Source of the DNA: Neolewinella litorea
GTDB lineage: Bacteria > Bacteroidota > Bacteroidia > Chitinophagales > Saprospiraceae
DNA: 64,000 nt
Reading direction: 5' to 3'
Assembly (NCBI RefSeq): GCF_004803465.1
Contig: NZ_SRSF01000002.1
Span: forward strand, 124,001-188,000
Shown here in pieces: positions 20,820 through 39,508 of the stretch. The position numbers were made by a program, and so were the translations under genes. Below the pieces are notes generated by a model, which saw nothing but the letters and a program-made list of their open reading frames with translations, had not been told where the DNA came from and searched no databases. Each line of letters opens with the position of its first letter. Positions within the stretch are counted from its first letter, which is position 1.

Positions 20820-20841
20820 GGCTTCCTGGCATTTTTGGCAG

Positions 20842-20878
20842 ACGTCGGACGTCTGTCAATTTGACAGACGTCCGACGT
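20842..20878. repeat. palindromic hairpin repeat, copy A
   Basis: Perfect 18-bp inverted repeat (20842-20859 and 20861-20878) around a single T. The outer part is the family core ACGTCGGACGT; the inner stem is CTGTCAA/TTGACAG. It lies 23 nt after the four-helix protein stop. Confidence 0.85.
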
Positions 20879-21083
20879 GGAGGGAGCTGGCCTTTCGGAT
20901 ACGATTGCTGCCTATCTCCCATCAATTACTTTTCGGCTTGATTAGTACGTCTATTTAGCCGGCCCTCAGGCAATGTAGCTCATTGACTGTTCGACAAAGG
21001 GGAACCAAAACAAGACCTGAGGGACAGTAATACTCCGGGAAATACAATATTACACAAACTGACGCGAGGTCTACGCCATTTTG

Positions 21084-21104
21084 ACAGACGTCGGACGTGT
21101 CATG
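21084..21104. repeat. palindromic repeat, solitary copy B
   Basis: The core AGACGTCGGACGT is bordered by TGACA and TGTCA, giving an imperfect short palindrome without the second arm found in other copies. The upstream TCTACGCC is shared with copy E. Confidence 0.7.
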
Positions 21105-21228
21105 CTGCAGATCATAGTTTTTGGCCATTATTTTGGGTTAAAGGTGCGCATTCTCCCTACCAGTGTCATTTACATCACCATATTCGCCGACTATCATCCG
21201 GAGCTGGGGGGGAATTCCCGCCATCCTG

Positions 21229-21273
21229 TCAGACGTCGGACGTGTGCCAAAATGGCACACGTCCGACGTCTGA
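21229..21273. repeat. palindromic hairpin repeat, copy C
   Basis: Perfect 21-bp arms (21229-21249 and 21253-21273) with loop AAA. The inner stem is GTGCCA/TGGCAC. The right arm ends 4 nt before the TTG (-33 candidate) of the M15 peptidase promoter. Confidence 0.88.
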
Positions 21274-21277
21274 AATA

Positions 21278-21309
21278 TTGTCCGGTCGGGGTGAGTACGA
21301 GTATTTTCG
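21278..21309 (+). promoter_or_regulatory. promoter of the M15 peptidase gene
   Basis: TTG at 21278-21280, a 21-nt spacer and TATTTTCG at 21302-21309 form a -33/-7 pair. The box ends 4 nt before the ATG at 21314, predicting a leaderless mRNA. Hairpin C abuts the -33 element. Confidence 0.6.
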
Positions 21310-21313
21310 CGGG

Positions 21314-22138
21314 ATGAAGTATCTCTTGCTGACCCTCGCTACCATTTCCCTGCTGAGTTGCAGTCCGGCCCAACCGGCCAGCGCCGCGGAACCGGCCCCG
21401 CCGGCAACCGACGTGCCGGACCCGGCACCCGCGACCGCGCCCATGGAAAGTGACAGCATCGGGGGCATACCCATCTATACCTACCTGACCGGGCAATTCG
21501 ATCCAGCAAAGCACCCGGATTTCGTCAAGGTCGCCGACCGCTATACCGACGGTGACCCCTACCTGCTGCACCGCGATACCTACGACGCCTTCGAACGCAT
21601 GCACGCTGCGGCCCGTCAACACGGAGTCAACCTGAAGATCGTCTCGGCTACCCGGAATTTTGCACGCCAGAAACAAATCTGGGAGGCCAAATGGAACGGC
21701 CAGCGCTTACTGGAGGGAAAAGAGAAGGCGGACGAAGTGTACCCGGACCCGGCCGATCGGGCCAAGGCCATCCTGCGCTACTCCAGCATGCCGGGCACGA
21801 GTCGCCACCACTGGGGAACGGATATCGACCTGAACGCCCTGAACAACGAATACTTCCAGACCGGTGAGGGCAAAAAGGTTTACGACTGGCTCAGGGCCCA
21901 CGGCGCGGAATTCGGCTTTTGTCAGCCCTACACGGCCAAGGGTGCCGAGCGACCCAACGGTTATGAGGAGGAGCGTTGGCACTGGAGTTATCTGCCCCTG
22001 GCGACCCGACTGACGGACTACGCGGCCACCAAATTGCGGGACGAAGACATCGGCGGATTCGCGGGTGCCGAGGCCGCTCCACGGATCGGCGTGGTGAAAA
22101 ACTACGTGCTGGGCGTGAATCCCGAATGCAAGGAGTAG
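21314..22138 (+). CDS. M15-family D-alanyl-D-alanine carboxypeptidase (VanY-like) lipoprotein
   Basis: The 274-residue protein has a lipoprotein signal (LLTLATISLLSC), a Pro/Ala-rich linker, and an M15B peptidase domain. Zinc ligands are visible in SRHHWGTDIDL near residues 161-171 (His and Asp) and in ERWHWSYLP near 220 (His). KIVSATRNFARQKQIW is the usual substrate-side motif. It trims D-Ala from peptidoglycan stem peptides in the periplasm. The start at ATG 21314 is fixed by the lipoprotein signal and by the promoter box 4 nt upstream. Confidence 0.9.
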   Translation: MKYLLLTLATISLLSCSPAQPASAAEPAPPATDVPDPAPATAPMESDSIGGIPIYTYLTGQFDPAKHPDFVKVADRYTDGDPYLLHRDTYDAFERMHAAARQHGVNLKIVSATRNFARQKQIWEAKWNGQRLLEGKEKADEVYPDPADRAKAILRYSSMPGTSRHHWGTDIDLNALNNEYFQTGEGKKVYDWLRAHGAEFGFCQPYTAKGAERPNGYEEERWHWSYLPLATRLTDYAATKLRDEDIGGFAGAEAAPRIGVVKNYVLGVNPECKE

Positions 22139-22206
22139 CCCGGACCTACTGACTACCAACAAGTTGCTTCCGTACCCGCCTCCTTTCCTCGGCTCGCTTG
22201 AAATCG

Positions 22207-22241
22207 GGGTAAACTTATGCCGGGGTACCCCGCGTTTACCC
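22207..22241. promoter_or_regulatory. nested palindrome upstream of the 22261 gene
   Basis: Outer arms GGGTAAAC (22207-22214) and GTTTACCC (22234-22241) enclose the perfect palindrome GGGGTACCCC (22222-22231). It ends 19 nt before the start codon at 22261. It could be an operator or a 5'-leader hairpin. Confidence 0.45.
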
Positions 22242-22260
22242 TAACACATAAGAACTGCCT

Positions 22261-22611
22261 ATGGAACTTTACGACATCAATCGCTACGCCCTCATCGTTA
22301 CGCCTAGTGAGGCCCTTCTGCGCTGGGCCATCCGTGAAGACCCCACCATCGAAGAGGAAATTGATTTTGAAGATACCTCCGACCTTACCACCGTTTATCT
22401 CCTGCCGGATTTCGACGAAATGGAGGAAGCCGAAGAATGGCTGGAGAACAACTTCATGCCCATCCTGGAAAACCTGCTCAGCGAGTGGGTAGAGGACGAT
22501 TCCAACTGGCCCGACAACCTGGCGCTCAACCACTTCGAAAAGTTCAGCGACTATACGATCACCAATATGGTCATCGACACCCAGGACGCCAGCTACGATG
22601 AGGAAGATTGA
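22261..22611 (+). CDS. acidic cytoplasmic protein of unknown function
   Basis: A 116-residue, strongly acidic protein without signal or membrane segment. It has MELYDINRYALIVTPSEALL at the N-terminus, an acidic centre DFDEMEEAEEWLENNF, and an aromatic C-terminal half. I do not recognise a family, but the even codon use, full-length frame and position between transcribed genes support a real gene. A nested palindrome precedes it. Confidence 0.7.
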   Translation: MELYDINRYALIVTPSEALLRWAIREDPTIEEEIDFEDTSDLTTVYLLPDFDEMEEAEEWLENNFMPILENLLSEWVEDDSNWPDNLALNHFEKFSDYTITNMVIDTQDASYDEED

Positions 22612-22653
22612 TGTCCTGCCCCCCTCCGGCAGACGCCGCTGATCCGGGGTAAC

Positions 22654-22688
22654 CGGAGGCGAGGCGTGTGTACCTCACTTCGCCTCCG
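22654..22688. terminator. hairpin between 22611 and the S9 peptidase gene
   Basis: CGGAGGCGA (22654-22662) pairs with TCGCCTCCG (22680-22688). There is no T-tract, so terminator function is uncertain. Confidence 0.35.
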
Positions 22689-22769
22689 CGAAGCAACCCG
22701 TACACCGGCTCAATTCCTTGCCCCAGTCCGAATTTCGTGGCCCTGCACCACGCGCTCAGCCTTTTCTCC

Positions 22770-25163
22770 ATGAATTACCAACGCCCTCCCGAAGCCATCG
22801 CCGATCTGGTCAACCTAAAGCCGGATCCCCTTATGCTGTTCGGGCCCGACCGCGATTACATCATCATTGCGGACCGGCCGATGTACCCCAGCGTGGAGGA
22901 ATTGAAAGAGCCAAAGGTAAAACTGGCCGGGCGACAGATCAATCCGAATACCTTTTCGCCCCACGGCAGTCGGGGCTTCTACCACCCCCGCCTGCATCGC
23001 ATATCCACGGGCGAGGAACGTTCCTTCCAGGGCCTGCCCAAGGGAGGGATGTTCCGCTACTTTTCCTGGTCGCCCGACGGCAACCGCATCGCGTTTTGCC
23101 TGGCTACCGAGGACGGCCTGCAACTCTGGACCTGCGACCGGCAATCACTGCACTGTCATCCGGTGGGGGAAAACAACATCAATAATAGTCTGGGCGGGGT
23201 ACCCTACGACTTCATCGGCAACGAACGCTTCCTCATCAAGCGGCGGATCCCGGGCGCGAAGAAGCCGTCGATGTCCGAAAACGTCACTGGCCCTATCGTC
23301 CAGGATTCCTCCGGCAAGGAAGGATCGAACCGCACCTACACCAATCTGCTGCAGAGTGACTACGACGTGGCCCTGTTCCGCTACTACGCCAGCAGCCAAC
23401 TGTACCTGCACCGCCTCGACACCGGCCACGAGACCCCCTGGGCCGAGCCGGGGATCATCGCCGGCCTGGGCGATTCGCCCAACGGCAAGTACTTCCTGAT
23501 CACCTACGTGGTGGAGCCTTTCAGTTTCAACGTTCCCTACGACAAGTTTGCCGACCGGGTGCTGTTGCTCGACCGGGAAGGCAACGTCATACGCGAGCTT
23601 ACCCGCCGCCCGGTAGTGGAGCACCTCCCCCCGGCCTTCGGTGCCGTGATCACCCAGCCGCGCCGCTTCAACTGGCGCAGCGACCACCCCGCCCAATTGT
23701 ACTGGACGGAGGCCATCGACGGCGGTGATCCCCGGCGCGCGGCCCCGTTCCGCGAGCAGTTGTACTTTCTGGAGGCTCCGTTCACGGGGACGCCGCAAAA
23801 AAGCATCAAACTTCCCCTCCGTTTTGGGGCCCTGCGGTGGTGTCGCGGCGACCTCGCCATCGTGGTCGACTGGGAATGGGCATCCCGCCGGCAGGTGACG
23901 CGGCGTTGGTACCCGGACGACCCCTCGCGCACGCCGGACGTGCTCTTCGACCACAATTGGGAGGACAACTACAACGACCCGGGTAGCGTAGTGACCATCT
24001 CGCTGCCCAGTGACCACAGCGTGCTGTTGACCCGCGACAACGGTGATACCCTGGTAATGGTCGGCAACGGCCACCGCCCCGAAGGGCCGCAGCCGTTCAT
24101 CGATGCTTTCAACCTCACCACTCACGAAAAGACCCGCCTCTGGGAGTCTACCCCGCCCAATTTCGAGCGCCCCCTGTTCTTCCTGGACCAGGATCCGGAG
24201 TTCTTCCTCCTGGCGCGGGAGCAGGCCAACGAACGACCCAACTTCTTCCTGCACCACCTGGTAAGTAACGAGGAGGTCCGCATCACCGATTTTCCTCACC
24301 CCTATCCCCAGTTGCGGCACACCAACTACGAGCTGCTCACCTACGAGCGAGCCGATGGCGTGCAATTGAGTGGGGAGCTCCACACGCCAGAGGGTTTCGT
24401 GGCGGGCCGGGATGCTCCGCTGCCCGTGCTGATGTGGGCCTACCCCCAGGAGTATAAGGACGCCGACAAGGCCGGGCAGGTGCTTACCAGTGCCCACCAG
24501 TTCCGGCGTATCAGTCCGCTCTCCCCCCTACCCTTTCTGGCCGCGGGCTACGCCGTGTTCGACGACTTCGCCATGCCCATCGTCGGGGAGGGCGAAGAAG
24601 AGCCCAACGAAACCTTCATCGAGCAGGTCAGGATGAATGCCGAGGCGGCGGTGCGCAGGTTAGTTGAATCGGGGGTGGCCGATCCCCGGCGCATCTACGT
24701 GGGCGGACACAGCTACGGGGCCTTTATGACCGCCCACTTACTCGCGCATACCGATCTCTTCGCCGGAGGAATCGCCCGCAGTGGCGCATTCAACCGTACC
24801 CTCACGCCCTTCGGATTCCAGGCGGAGGAGCGCACGTTCTGGCAGGTGCCCGAGACCTACGTCCGCCTTTCACCCTTTGTACACGCCGATAAGATCGACA
24901 GTCCGCTGCTGCTTATCCACGGCGAGGAGGACAGCAACAGCGGCACCTACCCCGTCCAATCCAAGCGTATGTTCACCGCCCTGGACAACCTGGGCAAAAC
25001 CGCCCGTCTCTGTCTGCTGCCCTACGAAGACCACGGCTACGCAGCCGAGGAAAGCATCCTGCATATGCTGTGGGAGATGCACCGCTGGATGGATATCCAC
25101 CAGCGGCCCGAGCTTTCTCCCGTGGCGGAGTCCGCCGACCGGCGTAACCACGGGCGCCGGTAA
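22770..25163 (+). CDS. S9 family peptidase (glutamyl endopeptidase-like)
   Basis: The 797-residue protein has an N-terminal beta-propeller (about 1-520) and a C-terminal alpha/beta-hydrolase peptidase domain. The opening YQRPPEAIADLVNLKPDP and the PSVEELKEPKVKLAGRQINP stretch fit the chloroplast-glutamyl-endopeptidase-like branch of prolyl oligopeptidases. The triad is visible as Ser in GGHSYGAFMTAH (about 648), Asp in LIHGEEDSNSGTY (about 721) and His in YEDHGYAAEES (about 755). I start at ATG 22770 because the upstream frame shows no homology. Unlike many relatives it lacks a signal peptide, so it is probably cytoplasmic. Confidence 0.88.
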   Translation: MNYQRPPEAIADLVNLKPDPLMLFGPDRDYIIIADRPMYPSVEELKEPKVKLAGRQINPNTFSPHGSRGFYHPRLHRISTGEERSFQGLPKGGMFRYFSWSPDGNRIAFCLATEDGLQLWTCDRQSLHCHPVGENNINNSLGGVPYDFIGNERFLIKRRIPGAKKPSMSENVTGPIVQDSSGKEGSNRTYTNLLQSDYDVALFRYYASSQLYLHRLDTGHETPWAEPGIIAGLGDSPNGKYFLITYVVEPFSFNVPYDKFADRVLLLDREGNVIRELTRRPVVEHLPPAFGAVITQPRRFNWRSDHPAQLYWTEAIDGGDPRRAAPFREQLYFLEAPFTGTPQKSIKLPLRFGALRWCRGDLAIVVDWEWASRRQVTRRWYPDDPSRTPDVLFDHNWEDNYNDPGSVVTISLPSDHSVLLTRDNGDTLVMVGNGHRPEGPQPFIDAFNLTTHEKTRLWESTPPNFERPLFFLDQDPEFFLLAREQANERPNFFLHHLVSNEEVRITDFPHPYPQLRHTNYELLTYERADGVQLSGELHTPEGFVAGRDAPLPVLMWAYPQEYKDADKAGQVLTSAHQFRRISPLSPLPFLAAGYAVFDDFAMPIVGEGEEEPNETFIEQVRMNAEAAVRRLVESGVADPRRIYVGGHSYGAFMTAHLLAHTDLFAGGIARSGAFNRTLTPFGFQAEERTFWQVPETYVRLSPFVHADKIDSPLLLIHGEEDSNSGTYPVQSKRMFTALDNLGKTARLCLLPYEDHGYAAEESILHMLWEMHRWMDIHQRPELSPVAESADRRNHGRR

Positions 25164-25215
25164 TTTTGACGCGACGAATGGGCGCGAATAAGTAAGTTTA
25201 CCGTAAACCGCCGCC

Positions 25216-27012
25216 GTGCCACGACCCTATTTGCTCTTGCTGCTGCCCGTCTTGTTTGCCGGCTGTCGCAGTGCCCTCACCTACACCCATCCCGACCTGG
25301 ACAAGTGGGAAAAGCTTACGCTGTCATTTCCGGGACCGGAAAGCGAAGAATCGGCTGCGGTCAATCCCTTCGTCCATTACCGGCTCGACGTCACCTTCAC
25401 CAACGACGACTACAGCATCACGGTACCGGGCTTTTACGCGGCCGACGGCAAGGCCGCCGAAACCAGTGCCGAGCGCGGCAACATCTGGCAGGTGCGGTTC
25501 CGGCCCGACCGGAGCGGCGAATGGACGTACGAAGGCCAACTGGTGAGCGGCGACAGCATCTACCTGCAGCCGGTCGGGGAGGGAAAAATTGTCGAGCGTT
25601 ACGAGGGGGCCTTCTTCGTGGGAGAGGCACCACCCGGAGAAACCGGTCGCCTGATCCGCGACCACCCCCGCTACCTGCGGTGGGCTGAGACGGGCGACTA
25701 CTTCATCAAAACCGGCGTCGACAGTCCGGAAAACCTCCTTGGGTACGAGGACTTCGACGGCACCTACCGCCACAGCAATACCTTTCGCGAGGGGGAAAGC
25801 AAAACGGAGGGGCTCCACCGCTTCTCGGCCCACCTTGACGACCACGGCACCCGCGACCCCGCCTGGAAAAATGGAATGGGGAAAGGGATCATCGGCGGCA
25901 TCAGTTACCTGGCCTCAGCGGGCGTGAACAGCCTGTACTTTCTCACGCTCAACTTAAACGGGGACGGCAAGGACGTGTGGCCCTATACCGACCACGAGGC
26001 GCGCTACCGCTTTGACGTGAGCAAATTGGACCAGTGGGAAATCGTGTTTGACCACGCCGACAGCCTGGGAATGATGCTCCACTTCGTGCTGAACGAGACC
26101 GAGAATGAAACCCTGCTTGACGGTGGCGATACGGGTCCGGAGCGGCAGCTGTACTTCCGGGAGCTGGTAGCCCGCTTCGGCCACCACCGGGCCGTCACCT
26201 GGAACCTGGGCGAGGAAAACGGCCCCAACGACTGGTCGGAAAGCTGGCAGGATACCCGTCAGCAGCGCGACGTACTGGCCTGGTTCGCCGAGAACGATCC
26301 CTTCCGTCATTACGTAGTGCTCCATACCCACCCGGGTGAGGAAGCATTCGCAAAGATCTACCAGCCCCTGCTGGGCAACGACCACCTCGACGGCCTTTCC
26401 CTGCAGCTCGGCGACCCATACTCCGCAAACGAAGTAACCCGTAAGTGGCTGCGCCTTTCGGCCGAAGCCGGGGCACCCTGGATCATGACTTTGGACGAGG
26501 TGGGGCCGTGGTGGCGGGGACTGGACCCCGACGATACCGTACCGAACAACCAGGACAGCCTGCGCGCCCTGACGCTCTGGGGCAACCTCCTGGCCGGCGG
26601 CGGCGGGGTAGAATGGTACTTCGGTGCGCGCAGTCCGCACAACGACCTCAACCTGGAAGACTGGCGCAGTCGGGACCGCGCCTACCGCTGGTCGGCCGAC
26701 GCCCGGCAATTTTTTGAAAGGCACCTCCCCTTCTGGGACATGGAAGCGCGCAATGAACTGACCCGCGAAGACAACGAGTTTTGCTTCGCGCAGGCCGGGA
26801 GCGTCTACGTGGTGAACCTACCCTTTGGCGAGCCCGCCACTCTGGATCTGAGCGACACGGAAGGGGAATACACCGTGCAGTGGTACAACCCCCGCGAGGG
26901 AGGAGACCTGGAAGACTACGGTGAACTGGTGCAGGCCAGTGACGGTGAGGTCGAATTAGTCCCCCCCGGAGAAGGACACTGGGTATGTCTGCTGAAACGA
27001 CGGACGCTCTAG
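25216..27012 (+). CDS. DUF5060-containing putative glycoside hydrolase lipoprotein
   Basis: The 598-residue protein has a lipoprotein signal (LLLLLPVLFAGC), a DUF5060 beta-sandwich (about 25-130, with KWEKLTLSFPGP and VTFTNDDYSITVPGFYA), a central TIM-barrel-like region (about 150-480, with YFIKTGVDSPENLLGYEDF and the possible acid/base stretch VTWNLGEENGPND), and a C-terminal beta-sandwich of the putative collagen-binding type. Relatives are cell-surface enzymes acting on plant or algal polysaccharides. Start is GTG 25216. Its stop overlaps that of the convergent mannosyltransferase gene in a CTAG at 27009-27012. Confidence 0.82.
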   Translation: MPRPYLLLLLPVLFAGCRSALTYTHPDLDKWEKLTLSFPGPESEESAAVNPFVHYRLDVTFTNDDYSITVPGFYAADGKAAETSAERGNIWQVRFRPDRSGEWTYEGQLVSGDSIYLQPVGEGKIVERYEGAFFVGEAPPGETGRLIRDHPRYLRWAETGDYFIKTGVDSPENLLGYEDFDGTYRHSNTFREGESKTEGLHRFSAHLDDHGTRDPAWKNGMGKGIIGGISYLASAGVNSLYFLTLNLNGDGKDVWPYTDHEARYRFDVSKLDQWEIVFDHADSLGMMLHFVLNETENETLLDGGDTGPERQLYFRELVARFGHHRAVTWNLGEENGPNDWSESWQDTRQQRDVLAWFAENDPFRHYVVLHTHPGEEAFAKIYQPLLGNDHLDGLSLQLGDPYSANEVTRKWLRLSAEAGAPWIMTLDEVGPWWRGLDPDDTVPNNQDSLRALTLWGNLLAGGGGVEWYFGARSPHNDLNLEDWRSRDRAYRWSADARQFFERHLPFWDMEARNELTREDNEFCFAQAGSVYVVNLPFGEPATLDLSDTEGEYTVQWYNPREGGDLEDYGELVQASDGEVELVPPGEGHWVCLLKRRTL

Positions 27013-27722
27013 CGCCAGCGCAGGCTAAGGACGCCGAAGACGGCTTCTTTGATGATGGACTTGTGCATTTTGCTGTTGCCGGCGATACGGTCGGTGAAAA
27101 CGATCGGTACTTCAACAATGCGAAAGCCCAGTTCCCGGGCCGTGTACTTCATTTCGATCTGGAAGGCGTAGCCGATGAAGCGGATCTCGTCTAGGTTCAT
27201 CTTTTCCAGCACGGGGCGTGAGTAGCACATGAAACCGGCGGTAGGGTCTTTCACGGGCATCCCGGTCACCACGCGGGTAAACAGGCTGGCGCCGTAGGAC
27301 AACACGATGCGGTCGAGGGGCCAGTTCTTCACCTTCCCGCCGCGGGTGTAGCGGCTGCCTACGGCTACGTCCGCCGGGCCCTCATGACAGGCGGCGCGCA
27401 GGCGAATGAGGTCGGCGGGCGTATGGCTGAAATCCGCGTCCATCTCAAAAAAGTAGCGGTAGTTTTCCGGCCGCGCCAGTCCCCAGCGGAAGCCGTCAAG
27501 GTAAGCGGTACCCAGTCCAAGCTTGCCGGCCCGTTCGAGTAGGTGCAACTGGGTGGGGTAACGCTCCTGCAGCTCCTTGACCACCGCCGCGGTACCGTCG
27601 GGAGAACCGTCGTCCACGATGAGCAGGTGAAAGGGTTGTGACAGCCCCAATACCGTCTCCACCATGCGCGTTATGTTTTCGCGTTCGTTATAGGTGGGGA
27701 TAATTACCAGACTGTCGCTCAA
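27009..27722 (-). CDS. polyprenol-phosphate mannosyltransferase-like GT2
   Basis: The 237-residue protein is a soluble-type GT2 enzyme like dolichol/polyprenol-phosphate mannose synthase: SLVIIPTYNERENI at the N-terminus, LLIVDDGSPDGTA, the metal-binding FFEMDADFSH near residue 95, and the lipid-binding C-terminus. It would move mannose (or another hexose) from GDP/UDP to polyprenol phosphate for periplasmic glycan or glycoprotein assembly. The start is a TTG at 27722. Further upstream residues look unrelated and a TATCTTTG box (27743-27750) sits 20 nt before this codon. Confidence 0.88.
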   Translation of the reverse strand: MSDSLVIIPTYNERENITRMVETVLGLSQPFHLLIVDDGSPDGTAAVVKELQERYPTQLHLLERAGKLGLGTAYLDGFRWGLARPENYRYFFEMDADFSHTPADLIRLRAACHEGPADVAVGSRYTRGGKVKNWPLDRIVLSYGASLFTRVVTGMPVKDPTAGFMCYSRPVLEKMNLDEIRFIGYAFQIEMKYTARELGFRIVEVPIVFTDRIAGNSKMHKSIIKEAVFGVLSLRWR

Positions 27723-27742
27723 GGAAGAAATAATTAAGCGGC

Positions 27743-27750
27743 CAAAGATA
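27743..27750 (-). promoter_or_regulatory. -7 box of the mannosyltransferase gene
   Basis: TATCTTTG on the minus strand, a full TAnnTTTG match, 20 nt upstream of the TTG start at 27722. It rules out the longer open frame reaching 27989. Confidence 0.55.
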
Positions 27751-27760
27751 GGACAGCCAT

Positions 27761-28651
27761 ATGATAGAAGGGATACGGGTGTTAAGTGGTGGCCCGGACC
27801 CGGTCGGTTTCCCGCGTACCCCAGGAAAATGGGCCTGCGCGGCTGCAATATTACTCCTTTTACTACTGGGTAGTGACCTGAGGGCCCAGGGCCCGATTGG
27901 TGGATTTCCCGTGGCGCGCGGCGAAGTGGCGATTGCCCCCGCCTACAGCGTCGAGCGATACGATACCTACTTCGGAGCGGGCGGCACACCCGAGGCCCGG
28001 CAGGTAACCACTACCGGGTACAGTCTGTTCCTGGAGGCCGGCCTGAACGAGCAGACGGCCCTGGTAGCTACCCTACCCTACCTGAAGACCAACGATCGGG
28101 CGGGCAGTCTGCAAGACGCCTCCGTGTACATCAAGTACATGAACCTTGACCAGCGAAGTACGAAGGGCGCGCACCGTTTCTTTACGGCCGTAGGCCTCAG
28201 TTTTCCGGTGGGCAATTACGAGACGACGGGCGTGGCCGCCCTGGGGCAGCGGGCGAGTGTTTTTCACGGTCGGCTGGTGTATCAGTATCAATTCGACAGT
28301 GGCTTTTTCCTGCACGCCCAGTCGGGAGTAGATTTTCAATTCGCTCCTGAGAGCCGGTCGACCTGGCCGGTGTTGTTGCGGACCGGCTACGGGGCCCGTT
28401 ACTTCTATCTGGAGGGGTGGATGGAGTTTGTCACGGCGCTCGAACCCGGGACGGCGGTGCAGACCGCTACGGCCGGTTCCGGCAGCAGCTGGCGTCGCCT
28501 GGGCGGTACCGTATACGTGCCAGTGGTCAGTTGGGCGGGCCTGGTGGCCGGTGGCGCATACGTGACGGGGGGAGAATTCATCGGGCAGAGCACCCGGTAC
28601 AATCTGGGGGTCGTCATAAAGATGGTACCACCCGCGCGGACGGAAACTTAA
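27761..28651 (+). CDS. outer-membrane beta-barrel protein of unknown function
   Basis: The 296-residue frame has a hydrophobic export signal (CAAAILLLLLLGSDLRAQ) ending near residue 43 and then alternating strands: VAIAPAYSVERYDTYF, YSLFLEAGLNEQTALVATLP, GRLVYQYQFDSGFFLHAQSG and so on, ending NLGVVIKM. This is the pattern of transporter/MetA-pathway-like barrels of about 12 strands. The start is uncertain because the signal peptide begins about 25 residues inside the frame; a later start could be used. No substrate suggested. Confidence 0.68.
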   Translation: MIEGIRVLSGGPDPVGFPRTPGKWACAAAILLLLLLGSDLRAQGPIGGFPVARGEVAIAPAYSVERYDTYFGAGGTPEARQVTTTGYSLFLEAGLNEQTALVATLPYLKTNDRAGSLQDASVYIKYMNLDQRSTKGAHRFFTAVGLSFPVGNYETTGVAALGQRASVFHGRLVYQYQFDSGFFLHAQSGVDFQFAPESRSTWPVLLRTGYGARYFYLEGWMEFVTALEPGTAVQTATAGSGSSWRRLGGTVYVPVVSWAGLVAGGAYVTGGEFIGQSTRYNLGVVIKMVPPARTET

Positions 28652-28700
28652 CCAGGTCCTTTTGGCCACGGCGGTGCTTCCCGAGCAGCCTGTCCGAATC

Positions 28701-29447
28701 TTAAGCCGGCTGCGTGCTGTTCAGGATCTCCGCAACGTGCATGACGCGCATGGGTACCTTTTCGCGCCGCATGAGCCCTTCCAAATGCATGAGACAGGAC
28801 ATGTCGCCGCTTGTGATGACCTCCGCCCCGTGTCGGAGGTGGTCGGCAATTCGGTCCTTGCCCATTTTGGCGGACAGTTCGGGTTGGTTGACGCTGAAGG
28901 TGCCGCCGAAGCCGCAGCATTCATCGATCCGGTCCAGGGGAATAAGTTCTACCCCCTGGACCATATTCAGCAAGTAGCGGTAGTAGCTGAAGGCCGGTCC
29001 CACGCGCTCGGAGCTCTCCCCCAGTCGTAGACCCCTCAGGCCGTGGCAGCTGTTGTGGATGCCCACCCGCGCAGCAAACCGGGCGCCGGGTAGTTCCTGC
29101 AATCCGATCACGTTCACCAGGAAGTCCGCTAATTCGAAGGTACGTTCGCGCACGGAGGTTACGGCCTCGGAATCCGCCAGCACGTCGTAGTGGTGATTGA
29201 CATGGTATACACAGCTGCCGGAAGGACAGACGATGTAATCGAACGACTGAAAAGTATCTATGAAGTGCTCGTAAATGGGCCGGGCTTCCTGCTCCATCCC
29301 GCTGTTGGCCAGGGGTTGTCCGCAGCAGGTTTGTTGTCTGGGATAGATCACCGTGCACCCAACCTTTTCCAGCAGTTGCAGGGTGGCCACGCCCGCCCGG
29401 GGATAAAATTGGTCGATATAGCAGGGAATGAAGAGGCCGACGGTCAT
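28701..29447 (-). CDS. (Fe-S)-binding protein, LutA/YkgE-like
   Basis: The 248-residue protein has the two cysteine-rich CCG domains of the LutA/GlcF group: QQTCCGQPLANSG near residues 38-50 and IDECCGFGGTFSVNQPELSA near 173-192, with PSGSCV and NSCHG as partner motifs. In B. subtilis LutA acts with LutB and LutC to oxidise L-lactate; neither lutB nor lutC is next to it here, so it may serve another oxidoreductase. A TACCTTCC box (29454-29461) lies 6 nt before the ATG. Confidence 0.85.
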   Translation of the reverse strand: MTVGLFIPCYIDQFYPRAGVATLQLLEKVGCTVIYPRQQTCCGQPLANSGMEQEARPIYEHFIDTFQSFDYIVCPSGSCVYHVNHHYDVLADSEAVTSVRERTFELADFLVNVIGLQELPGARFAARVGIHNSCHGLRGLRLGESSERVGPAFSYYRYLLNMVQGVELIPLDRIDECCGFGGTFSVNQPELSAKMGKDRIADHLRHGAEVITSGDMSCLMHLEGLMRREKVPMRVMHVAEILNSTQPA

Positions 29448-29503
29448 GGGTGGGGAAGGTAAGGCGGATCAGCCTTTGTGGTGTCCGGTGATGTCCTGTT
29501 TTG

Positions 29504-29552
29504 GGCTTTGTCATTTTGGCAGACGTCGGACGTCTGCCAAAACGACAAAGCC
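29504..29552. repeat. palindromic hairpin repeat, copy D
   Basis: A 49-nt palindrome centred on G 29528, with 24-bp arms and one mismatch (29513 against 29543). The core GACGTC-G-GACGTC is flanked by GGC/GCC and TTTT/AAAA. It is 57 nt upstream of the LutA-like start. Confidence 0.85.
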
Positions 29553-29654
29553 AGCAATCACGCAGCATTTGCATGTAAGTCGGAAAAATTCCTGAGTTGG
29601 CGAGTAAGGGCGGCTAAGGAAAACGGACCAAAATGGGCAAATTCTACGCCTAAC

Positions 29655-29703
29655 TGGCAGACGTCGGACGTATGACATCCTGTCATACGTCCGACGTCTG
29701 CCA
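29655..29703. repeat. palindromic hairpin repeat, copy E
   Basis: Perfect 23-bp arms (29655-29677 and 29681-29703) with loop TCC. The inner stem is ATGACA/TGTCAT, different from copies A and C but fully paired. The right arm ends 10 nt after the RavA-like stop codon on the opposite side. Confidence 0.88.
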
Positions 29704-39446: not shown

Positions 39447-39472
39447 AGCCGCCTCCGGGCACCGCTCAAATA

Positions 39473-39508
39473 AAGGCACGCCTCCGGTTTCGGAGGCGTG
39501 CCTTTTCT
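39473..39508. terminator. bidirectional Rho-independent terminator between ilvE and apbE
   Basis: Fourteen-bp perfect arms (39473-39486 and 39491-39504) with loop GTTT. The left arm starts with A residues and the right is followed by T residues, so it can serve both strands. Confidence 0.9.

Follow-up and report, generated by a model that had tools for sequence, protein, structure and literature searches.

The window analysed here is a 64-kb stretch of the Neolewinella litorea genome that holds two intergenic units of long hairpins, whose relation to a REP-associated tyrosine transposase (RAYT; REP, repetitive extragenic palindrome) is the subject of this work. Thirteen close inverted repeats were listed in the window in total, and the four at the top of that list are hairpins D, E, C and A. 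Unit 1 (20836-21275; no feature described here is assigned a strand) lies between a 162-aa open reading frame (ORF) and an M15-peptidase-like gene. It comprises hairpin A (20842-20878; 18-nt arms, 100%), hairpin C (21229-21273; 21-nt arms, 100%) and, between them, half copy B (21084-21104), which has one core only, at 21088-21098. Unit 2 (29504-29703), which has a gene for a MoxR/RavA-like ATPase on one side and a LutA-like gene on the other, comprises hairpin D (29504-29552; 24-nt arms, 96%), with a single core within a long palindrome, and hairpin E (29655-29703; 23-nt arms, 100%). Hairpins A, C and E each contain two inverted cores 26 bp apart. An earlier reading of the window, made from its sequence only, had reported the four palindromes with arms of 18-24 nt and the half copy; all are present at the positions it gave, and the hairpin coordinates yield its spacers of 350 and 102 nt. 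Folded as single-stranded DNA, hairpins A, C, D and E reach -21.9 to -30 kcal/mol (z -8.3 to -12.0), and none of 200 shuffles folded equally well. When two mismatches are allowed, the 11-mer core is weakly enriched in the window (39 matches versus 24.4).

The family extends beyond the window, as a genome-wide search and orientation count, proposed in the same reading, show. The exact core ACGTCGGACGT has 96 copies in the 4.40-Mb N. litorea genome (56 forward and 40 reverse), against three for a reversed-pattern control, and at most six in each of 20 other members of the genus. With clusters defined by gaps of less than 700 bp between cores, the 96 cores fall into 35 clusters, 26 of them multi-core. 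The nine single cores are included in the totals of 96 and 35; seven of them, which have no syntenic interval in N. marina, look like chance hits. The core is an 11-bp palindrome with G or C at its centre, often with a TGnCAG flank on one side. Adjacent cores less than 60 bp apart (n=46) are most often separated by 33 bp (33 cases), otherwise by 26 bp (11) or 16 bp (2), and the 26-bp pairs are the basis of the long window hairpins A, C and E. The commonest unit consists of a core, a 33-bp step, a second core, a spacer and an inverted pair, so that the palindrome is doubled at each end, which corrects the picture drawn from the window. The canonical unit is thus two inverted ends, each of two ACGTCsGACGT palindromes 33 bp apart, around an unconserved spacer, and the window units are variants of it. 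The family occurs as inverted doublets at high copy number, for the most part between genes, with gene context taken from the syntenic clusters described below.

The claim that every inner-stem change is matched on the other arm holds for the window copies; in further copies changes are mostly, not always, matched. Pairing is kept in 91.0% of cells among 14 distinct 49-nt composite hairpins from N. litorea and N. marina, and two-sided changes occur in 27 cells compared with 10.5 in shuffles (0/500 shuffles as high). Column pair 18/32 is kept in 13 of the 14 with three pair types; pair 21/29 is kept in nine and broken in five. The flanks of single 11-bp cores show no covariation above shuffles, except in N. 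marina at a single distance, that of 16 from the core centre (49/100 versus a shuffle maximum of 44). Since each arm is a copy of the other, homogenisation could yield compensation as well as selection. Elsewhere in the window, at 39472-39505, AAAGGCACGCCTCCG forms an inverted repeat with perfect 15-nt arms and a loop of 4 nt; it is unrelated to this family.

A RAYT gene and its orthologues flanked by the palindromes

The sequence-only reading had likened the hairpins to REP/REPIN-type mobile repeats and noted that no RAYT is present. This is correct for the window, where no match was found, but not for the genome: a 184-aa RAYT ORF on another contig (G000:C23:464519-465070; L045:4020-4571) has the same palindromes on both sides. 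This arrangement, and the compensated variant of the palindrome around its orthologues, support the likeness to REP/REPIN repeats. The ORF matches NF047646 (REP-associated tyrosine transposase) with E 3e-12 and 46.6 bits, below the cut-off of 80, and PF01797 weakly (E 0.016). All five aligned orthologues match NF047646; the N. xylanilytica RAYT, which has an in-frame stop, was excluded from alignments. Invariant across five sequences are the NHFH motif and, within YxHxN, a tyrosine that is Y133 in N. marina. The sole PDB match of the orthologue profile is 4er8, a TnpA-REP structure (E 0.0067), and a Foldseek search with an AF2 model of the N. marina RAYT (mean pLDDT 68) places 4er8 at rank 4, with the ISDra2 and IS608 transposases ahead. 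The protein thus combines the HUH motif, catalytic tyrosine, IS200-like fold and profile match of the RAYT family. It does not qualify as an autonomous IS200/IS605 element, being present in one copy in the N. litorea genome, with its next paralogue 34% identical. The gene neighbourhood is the same in N. marina and Lewinella sp. IMCC34191. Viral contigs contain no relative of this RAYT and seven plasmid records do, with 27-31% identity among the five matches listed; carriage by a virus or plasmid was rejected on these grounds.

Six further RAYT-like genes are found in N. litorea, at C3:34345, C36:120355, C34:210309, C23:220829, C12:24660 and C1:1171354 (L061-L065, L068/L088). The five that were scanned each have their own, different flanking repeats, for example GTAGCGCCGACTTGAGTCGGC, arrays of CCGGAGGTCACGAGCCG, or tandem 80-bp units with GCTGCCTGAGGCAGC; the sixth (L088) has ACCGTCCAACG-type palindromes in its flanks.

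Orthologues of the 184-aa RAYT are 75% identical in N. marina (G016), 62% in N. xylanilytica (G007) and in IMCC34191 (G001), 53% in Lewinella sp. IMCC34183 (G020) and 50% in N. antarctica (G019). In the first four of these species the gene is flanked by ACATCSGATGT, with the 33-bp step in three, and the N. marina locus has long inverted ends (62 nt, 81%). This palindrome has 120 copies in N. marina, 74 in N. xylanilytica, 40 in IMCC34191 and 221 in IMCC34183, and at most five in each of the other 17 of the 21 genomes, N. litorea included. The ACGTC and ACATC versions differ by the replacement of a stem G-C pair by A-T, and therefore pairing is preserved. Comparison of these loci shows that the RAYT and its palindromes change version together. 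In a two-protein tree of 12 genomes, N. litorea groups with the four ACATC relatives; N. antarctica, outside this group, has none of these cores. In IMCC34183, eleven ACATCGGATGT matches exactly 525 bp apart (G020:C44:172392-177642) form a long tandem array unlike the dispersed units.

Palindrome version at sites common to related species

The analysis of synteny used stretches of 6.6-17 kb that surround the N. litorea clusters or, in N. marina, 100 of the 120 cores; flanks were compared by tblastx, and intervals were widened by 60 bp (N. marina) or 80 bp (IMCC34191). Both flanks of 23 of the 35 N. litorea clusters lie in one N. marina stretch, and 22 of these gaps, both window loci included, contain N. 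marina cores; the one syntenic gap empty in N. marina is at L043:13193. Among multi-core clusters, 20 of 26 are shared. Given that 100 of 120 N. marina cores were covered, the lack of a syntenic interval for the other 12 clusters is no evidence of their absence there. Shared clusters often have the same number and order of cores in both species. At the 22 shared sites N. litorea has 69 cores of the ACGTC/GACGT version, seven half-switched cores and no ACATC/GATGT core, while N. marina has 67 ACATC/GATGT cores, one half-switched and none of the new version. Across whole genomes, half-switched cores number 19 in N. litorea and one to three in each of the four relatives.

Eight of 16 IMCC34191 clusters share a gap with N. 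litorea, all in the old (ACATC) state, and seven of the eight are also shared with N. marina. As all the shared IMCC34191 sites are old, ACATC is most simply taken as the ancestral version; the sites were there before the split and were altered in situ. This comparison shows that most multi-core units occupy sites that predate the divergence from N. marina, and that the palindromes at shared sites changed in place to the new version in the N. litorea lineage. The pattern shown by the shared gaps is one of old sites common to species rather than recent spread, which revises the earlier idea of mobile copies.

The window loci illustrate this. The unit 1 gap of N. marina holds a unit of two ACATC hairpins, and its unit 2 gap keeps one ACATC core. 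No core was found in the unit 2 gap of G001, G004, G007, G009, G012, G017 or G020, nor, for unit 1, in the upstream stretch examined of the same seven genomes (the left neighbour differs in G020); G020 has a core pair at the opposite end of the LutA-like gene. In N. marina, near position 12382 of L202 (G016:C11), the RavA-like reading frame enters the remaining palindrome and stops just past the core, as if the unit had replaced the gene's own end. In another genome (G015), a more distant RAYT (39% identity) with TCGTCSGACGA palindromes occupies the same gap as unit 1 of N. litorea, directly before the M15-like gene (L166, L087; G015:C22:464384-466190).

The palindromes stand out as maintained or homogenised because the RAYT third codon positions are only 43% identical between N. 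litorea and N. marina and orthology brings no greater likeness of spacers. Tested with local scores, from which L033 was dropped, orthologous units do not resemble each other in their spacers more than non-orthologous units do (p 0.23; 0.77 without L042). A global alignment had suggested conserved orthologous spacers (p 3e-4) but is confounded by unit length, and that idea was set aside with the null result of the local-score test. Replacement of whole units was also rejected, as the spacers of N. litorea units are not alike, arguing against recent copying. So was the idea that CpG deamination drove the switch: these CpGs are missing from the old form, which is the ancestral one, so that the change ran in the opposite direction.

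Helical phasing and rival explanations

In canonical units the distance between the inner cores varies in steps of roughly one helical turn. In 15 such N. litorea units it is 98 (two units), 107-109 (six), 118-121 (five), 127 or 139 bp, which gives phasing at 10.5 bp with R 0.81 (p 2e-4). The RAYT unit (inner distance 681), window unit 1 and L043 were left out of the test. With distinct distances only, the 10.5-bp period has p 0.003, and allowing any period of 6-20 gives p 0.03. Phasing is also seen in N. marina (R 0.91; 14 units, many of them orthologous to N. litorea units) and in IMCC34191, where p is 0.015 at 10.5 bp and 0.10 for any period in seven strict units, and 0.0075 and 0.011 in 11 loose ones. 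Five orthologous units have changed in length by -19, 11, -11, 32 and -9 bp, that is, by near whole turns (p 0.007, a post hoc choice). The suggestion in the sequence-only reading that the palindromes are protein-binding sites gains from this phasing.

We consider it probable that the hairpins belong, as non-autonomous repeats, to a REP/RAYT-type system of marine Bacteroidota akin to Neolewinella, with RAYT-linked palindromes whose version changes in place. The RAYT would recognise the palindrome as a folded single-stranded hairpin and nick beside it, a step based on the biochemistry of other RAYTs (PMC8266576; this and the other papers cited here were drawn on in part). Repair or strand transfer between copies may then homogenise the palindromes, amounting to an orthoswitch in place, and the version recognised by the current RAYT would spread, aided by selection for a match to it. 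The phasing of about 10.5 bp suggests that the two ends of a unit may be brought together on duplex DNA.

Several observations weigh against this interpretation. The rewriting may have proceeded by gene conversion or by selection at each site. The GTAG/GTGG 5' foot of REPs is absent (24 of 174 flanks versus 22.7 expected from shuffles), and no event of transposition, insertion or excision and no target duplication was observed. Five fully old cores persist in N. litorea, one of them within cluster L056, and in N. xylanilytica 74 ACATC cores persist although its RAYT (L071/L100) has one in-frame TAG. The correlation of RAYT and core counts few events, because the RAYT-bearing species with the core form one clade, and the argument from presence and absence over 21 genomes is weakened. 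Five non-canonical N. litorea units do not fit the phasing (R 0.19 alone; R 0.64 for all 20), and in IMCC34183, whose cores are paired 16 bp apart, there is none (R 0.10, p 0.86, n=16, from 100 of 221 cores listed, those on five contigs being grouped into clusters by hand). The phasing could possibly stem from a few founder lengths inherited by copying.

The phasing also bears on a rival explanation, in which a dimeric protein, chromosomal or regulatory, binds the palindromes as duplex DNA and loops out what lies between the two ends; the sites would have tracked its specificity singly under selection, and the RAYT would merely carry such sites. The two-fold symmetry of the 11-bp core, the constant 33-bp step (33 of 46 adjacent distances below 60 bp), the half-switched cores and the retention of sites while spacers diverged all agree with such a protein. 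However, RAYT orthologues are flanked by palindromes in N. litorea and four relatives, with versions that change together, the neighbouring genes (annotated in part) reveal no regulon logic, and the missing phasing of IMCC34183 counts here too, so that we regard this explanation as unlikely, if the strongest of the rivals. Less probable still is independent insertion, in which each species was invaded by its own version and the shared sites are hot spots. A preference of REP-type repeats for certain intergenic contexts has been reported, units are missing from some relatives, so that gaps can be empty, and the unit 1 gap of G015 holds another RAYT with other palindromes; yet the coincidence of 22 of 35 clusters, often with the same core number and order, and seven sites common to three species are hard to reconcile with separate invasions. 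We give least credence of all to intrinsic or bidirectional terminators or stabilisers of mRNA 3' ends, even though the hairpins are strong, intergenic and often tens of bases from a gene end. None of ten terminator-like sites coincides with a full hairpin, the window copies have no T-run after the stem, and the window has no Rfam match at gathering scores. The 21 multi-core syntenic clusters lie between codirectional (10), convergent (7) and divergent (4) gene pairs; the strands were taken from tblastx matches, of which two are weak. The folded mRNA 3' end mentioned as a possibility in the earlier reading finds no support in the terminator scan or the gene orientations.

Relation to known systems and implications

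Like the REP/REPIN/BIME repeats and their RAYTs (Nunvar 2010, PMC2817692; Bertels and Rainey 2011, PMC3116915), the N. litorea family consists of high-copy intergenic palindromes in inverted doublets, with one RAYT between copies that co-evolves with them, and its palindrome survives mutation. It differs in that it has no GTAG/GTGG foot, that each end carries two palindromes with a 33-bp step, that spacer lengths are quantised by the helix and that sites are common to species. Co-evolution of RAYTs and repeats, and orthologous RAYTs with altered yet palindromic flanks, were already known (PMC2817692, PMC3686654). Syntenic RAYTs with different repeat versions in related strains were described as REP orthogroups or orthoswitch (Nunvar 2013, PMC3686654), where the mechanism of REP sequence change was only open to speculation. 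In the orthoswitch model old copies stay and decay while new ones spread, whereas in N. litorea the shared sites carry the new version and the old one is gone from them. TIRtrons (TIRYT; Di Nocera 2013, PMC3733652) also have a RAYT-like gene between long inverted repeats, some of them self-complementary and dispersed as dimers or clusters; the shared TIRtron core differs, and its GGGGWSAS was not seen by eye in the ends of the N. litorea family, no scan having been scored. TnpA-REP subclass 2.6 (Quentin 2018, PMC6006769) is mainly from Bacteroidetes and has atypical flanking structures copied in the genome, which are mentioned there without detail in the part of that paper drawn on. The NHFH, FQ and SS motifs of the N. 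litorea RAYT resemble those of subclass 2.1, which is longer and is reported there without REP-like sequences, and the 184-aa protein fully fits neither subclass. A search of the open literature gave no paper joining RAYT and Lewinella, and Neolewinella was absent among the matches listed. No title there (mainly titles were searched, with subscription papers and preprints outside the search) concerned helical phasing of REP-type repeats or switching in place between species.

It is an open question how a REP family can alter its sequence and still keep the transposase that partners it. With about twenty shared sites in opposite states, half-switched intermediates and an outgroup, change in place can be separated from spread and decay, and a change in the same direction at many fixed sites since a split is a readable trace of repeat evolution. 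We tentatively speculate that a drifting RAYT specificity may have rewritten old hairpins at dozens of fixed, inherited sites and that the doubled ends, on one face of the helix, may form protein-bridged loops, in which case transposase and repeats would be part of chromosome architecture and not a spreading element. Should the helical phasing recur in further genomes, it would give REP-like repeats an architectural role on duplex DNA.

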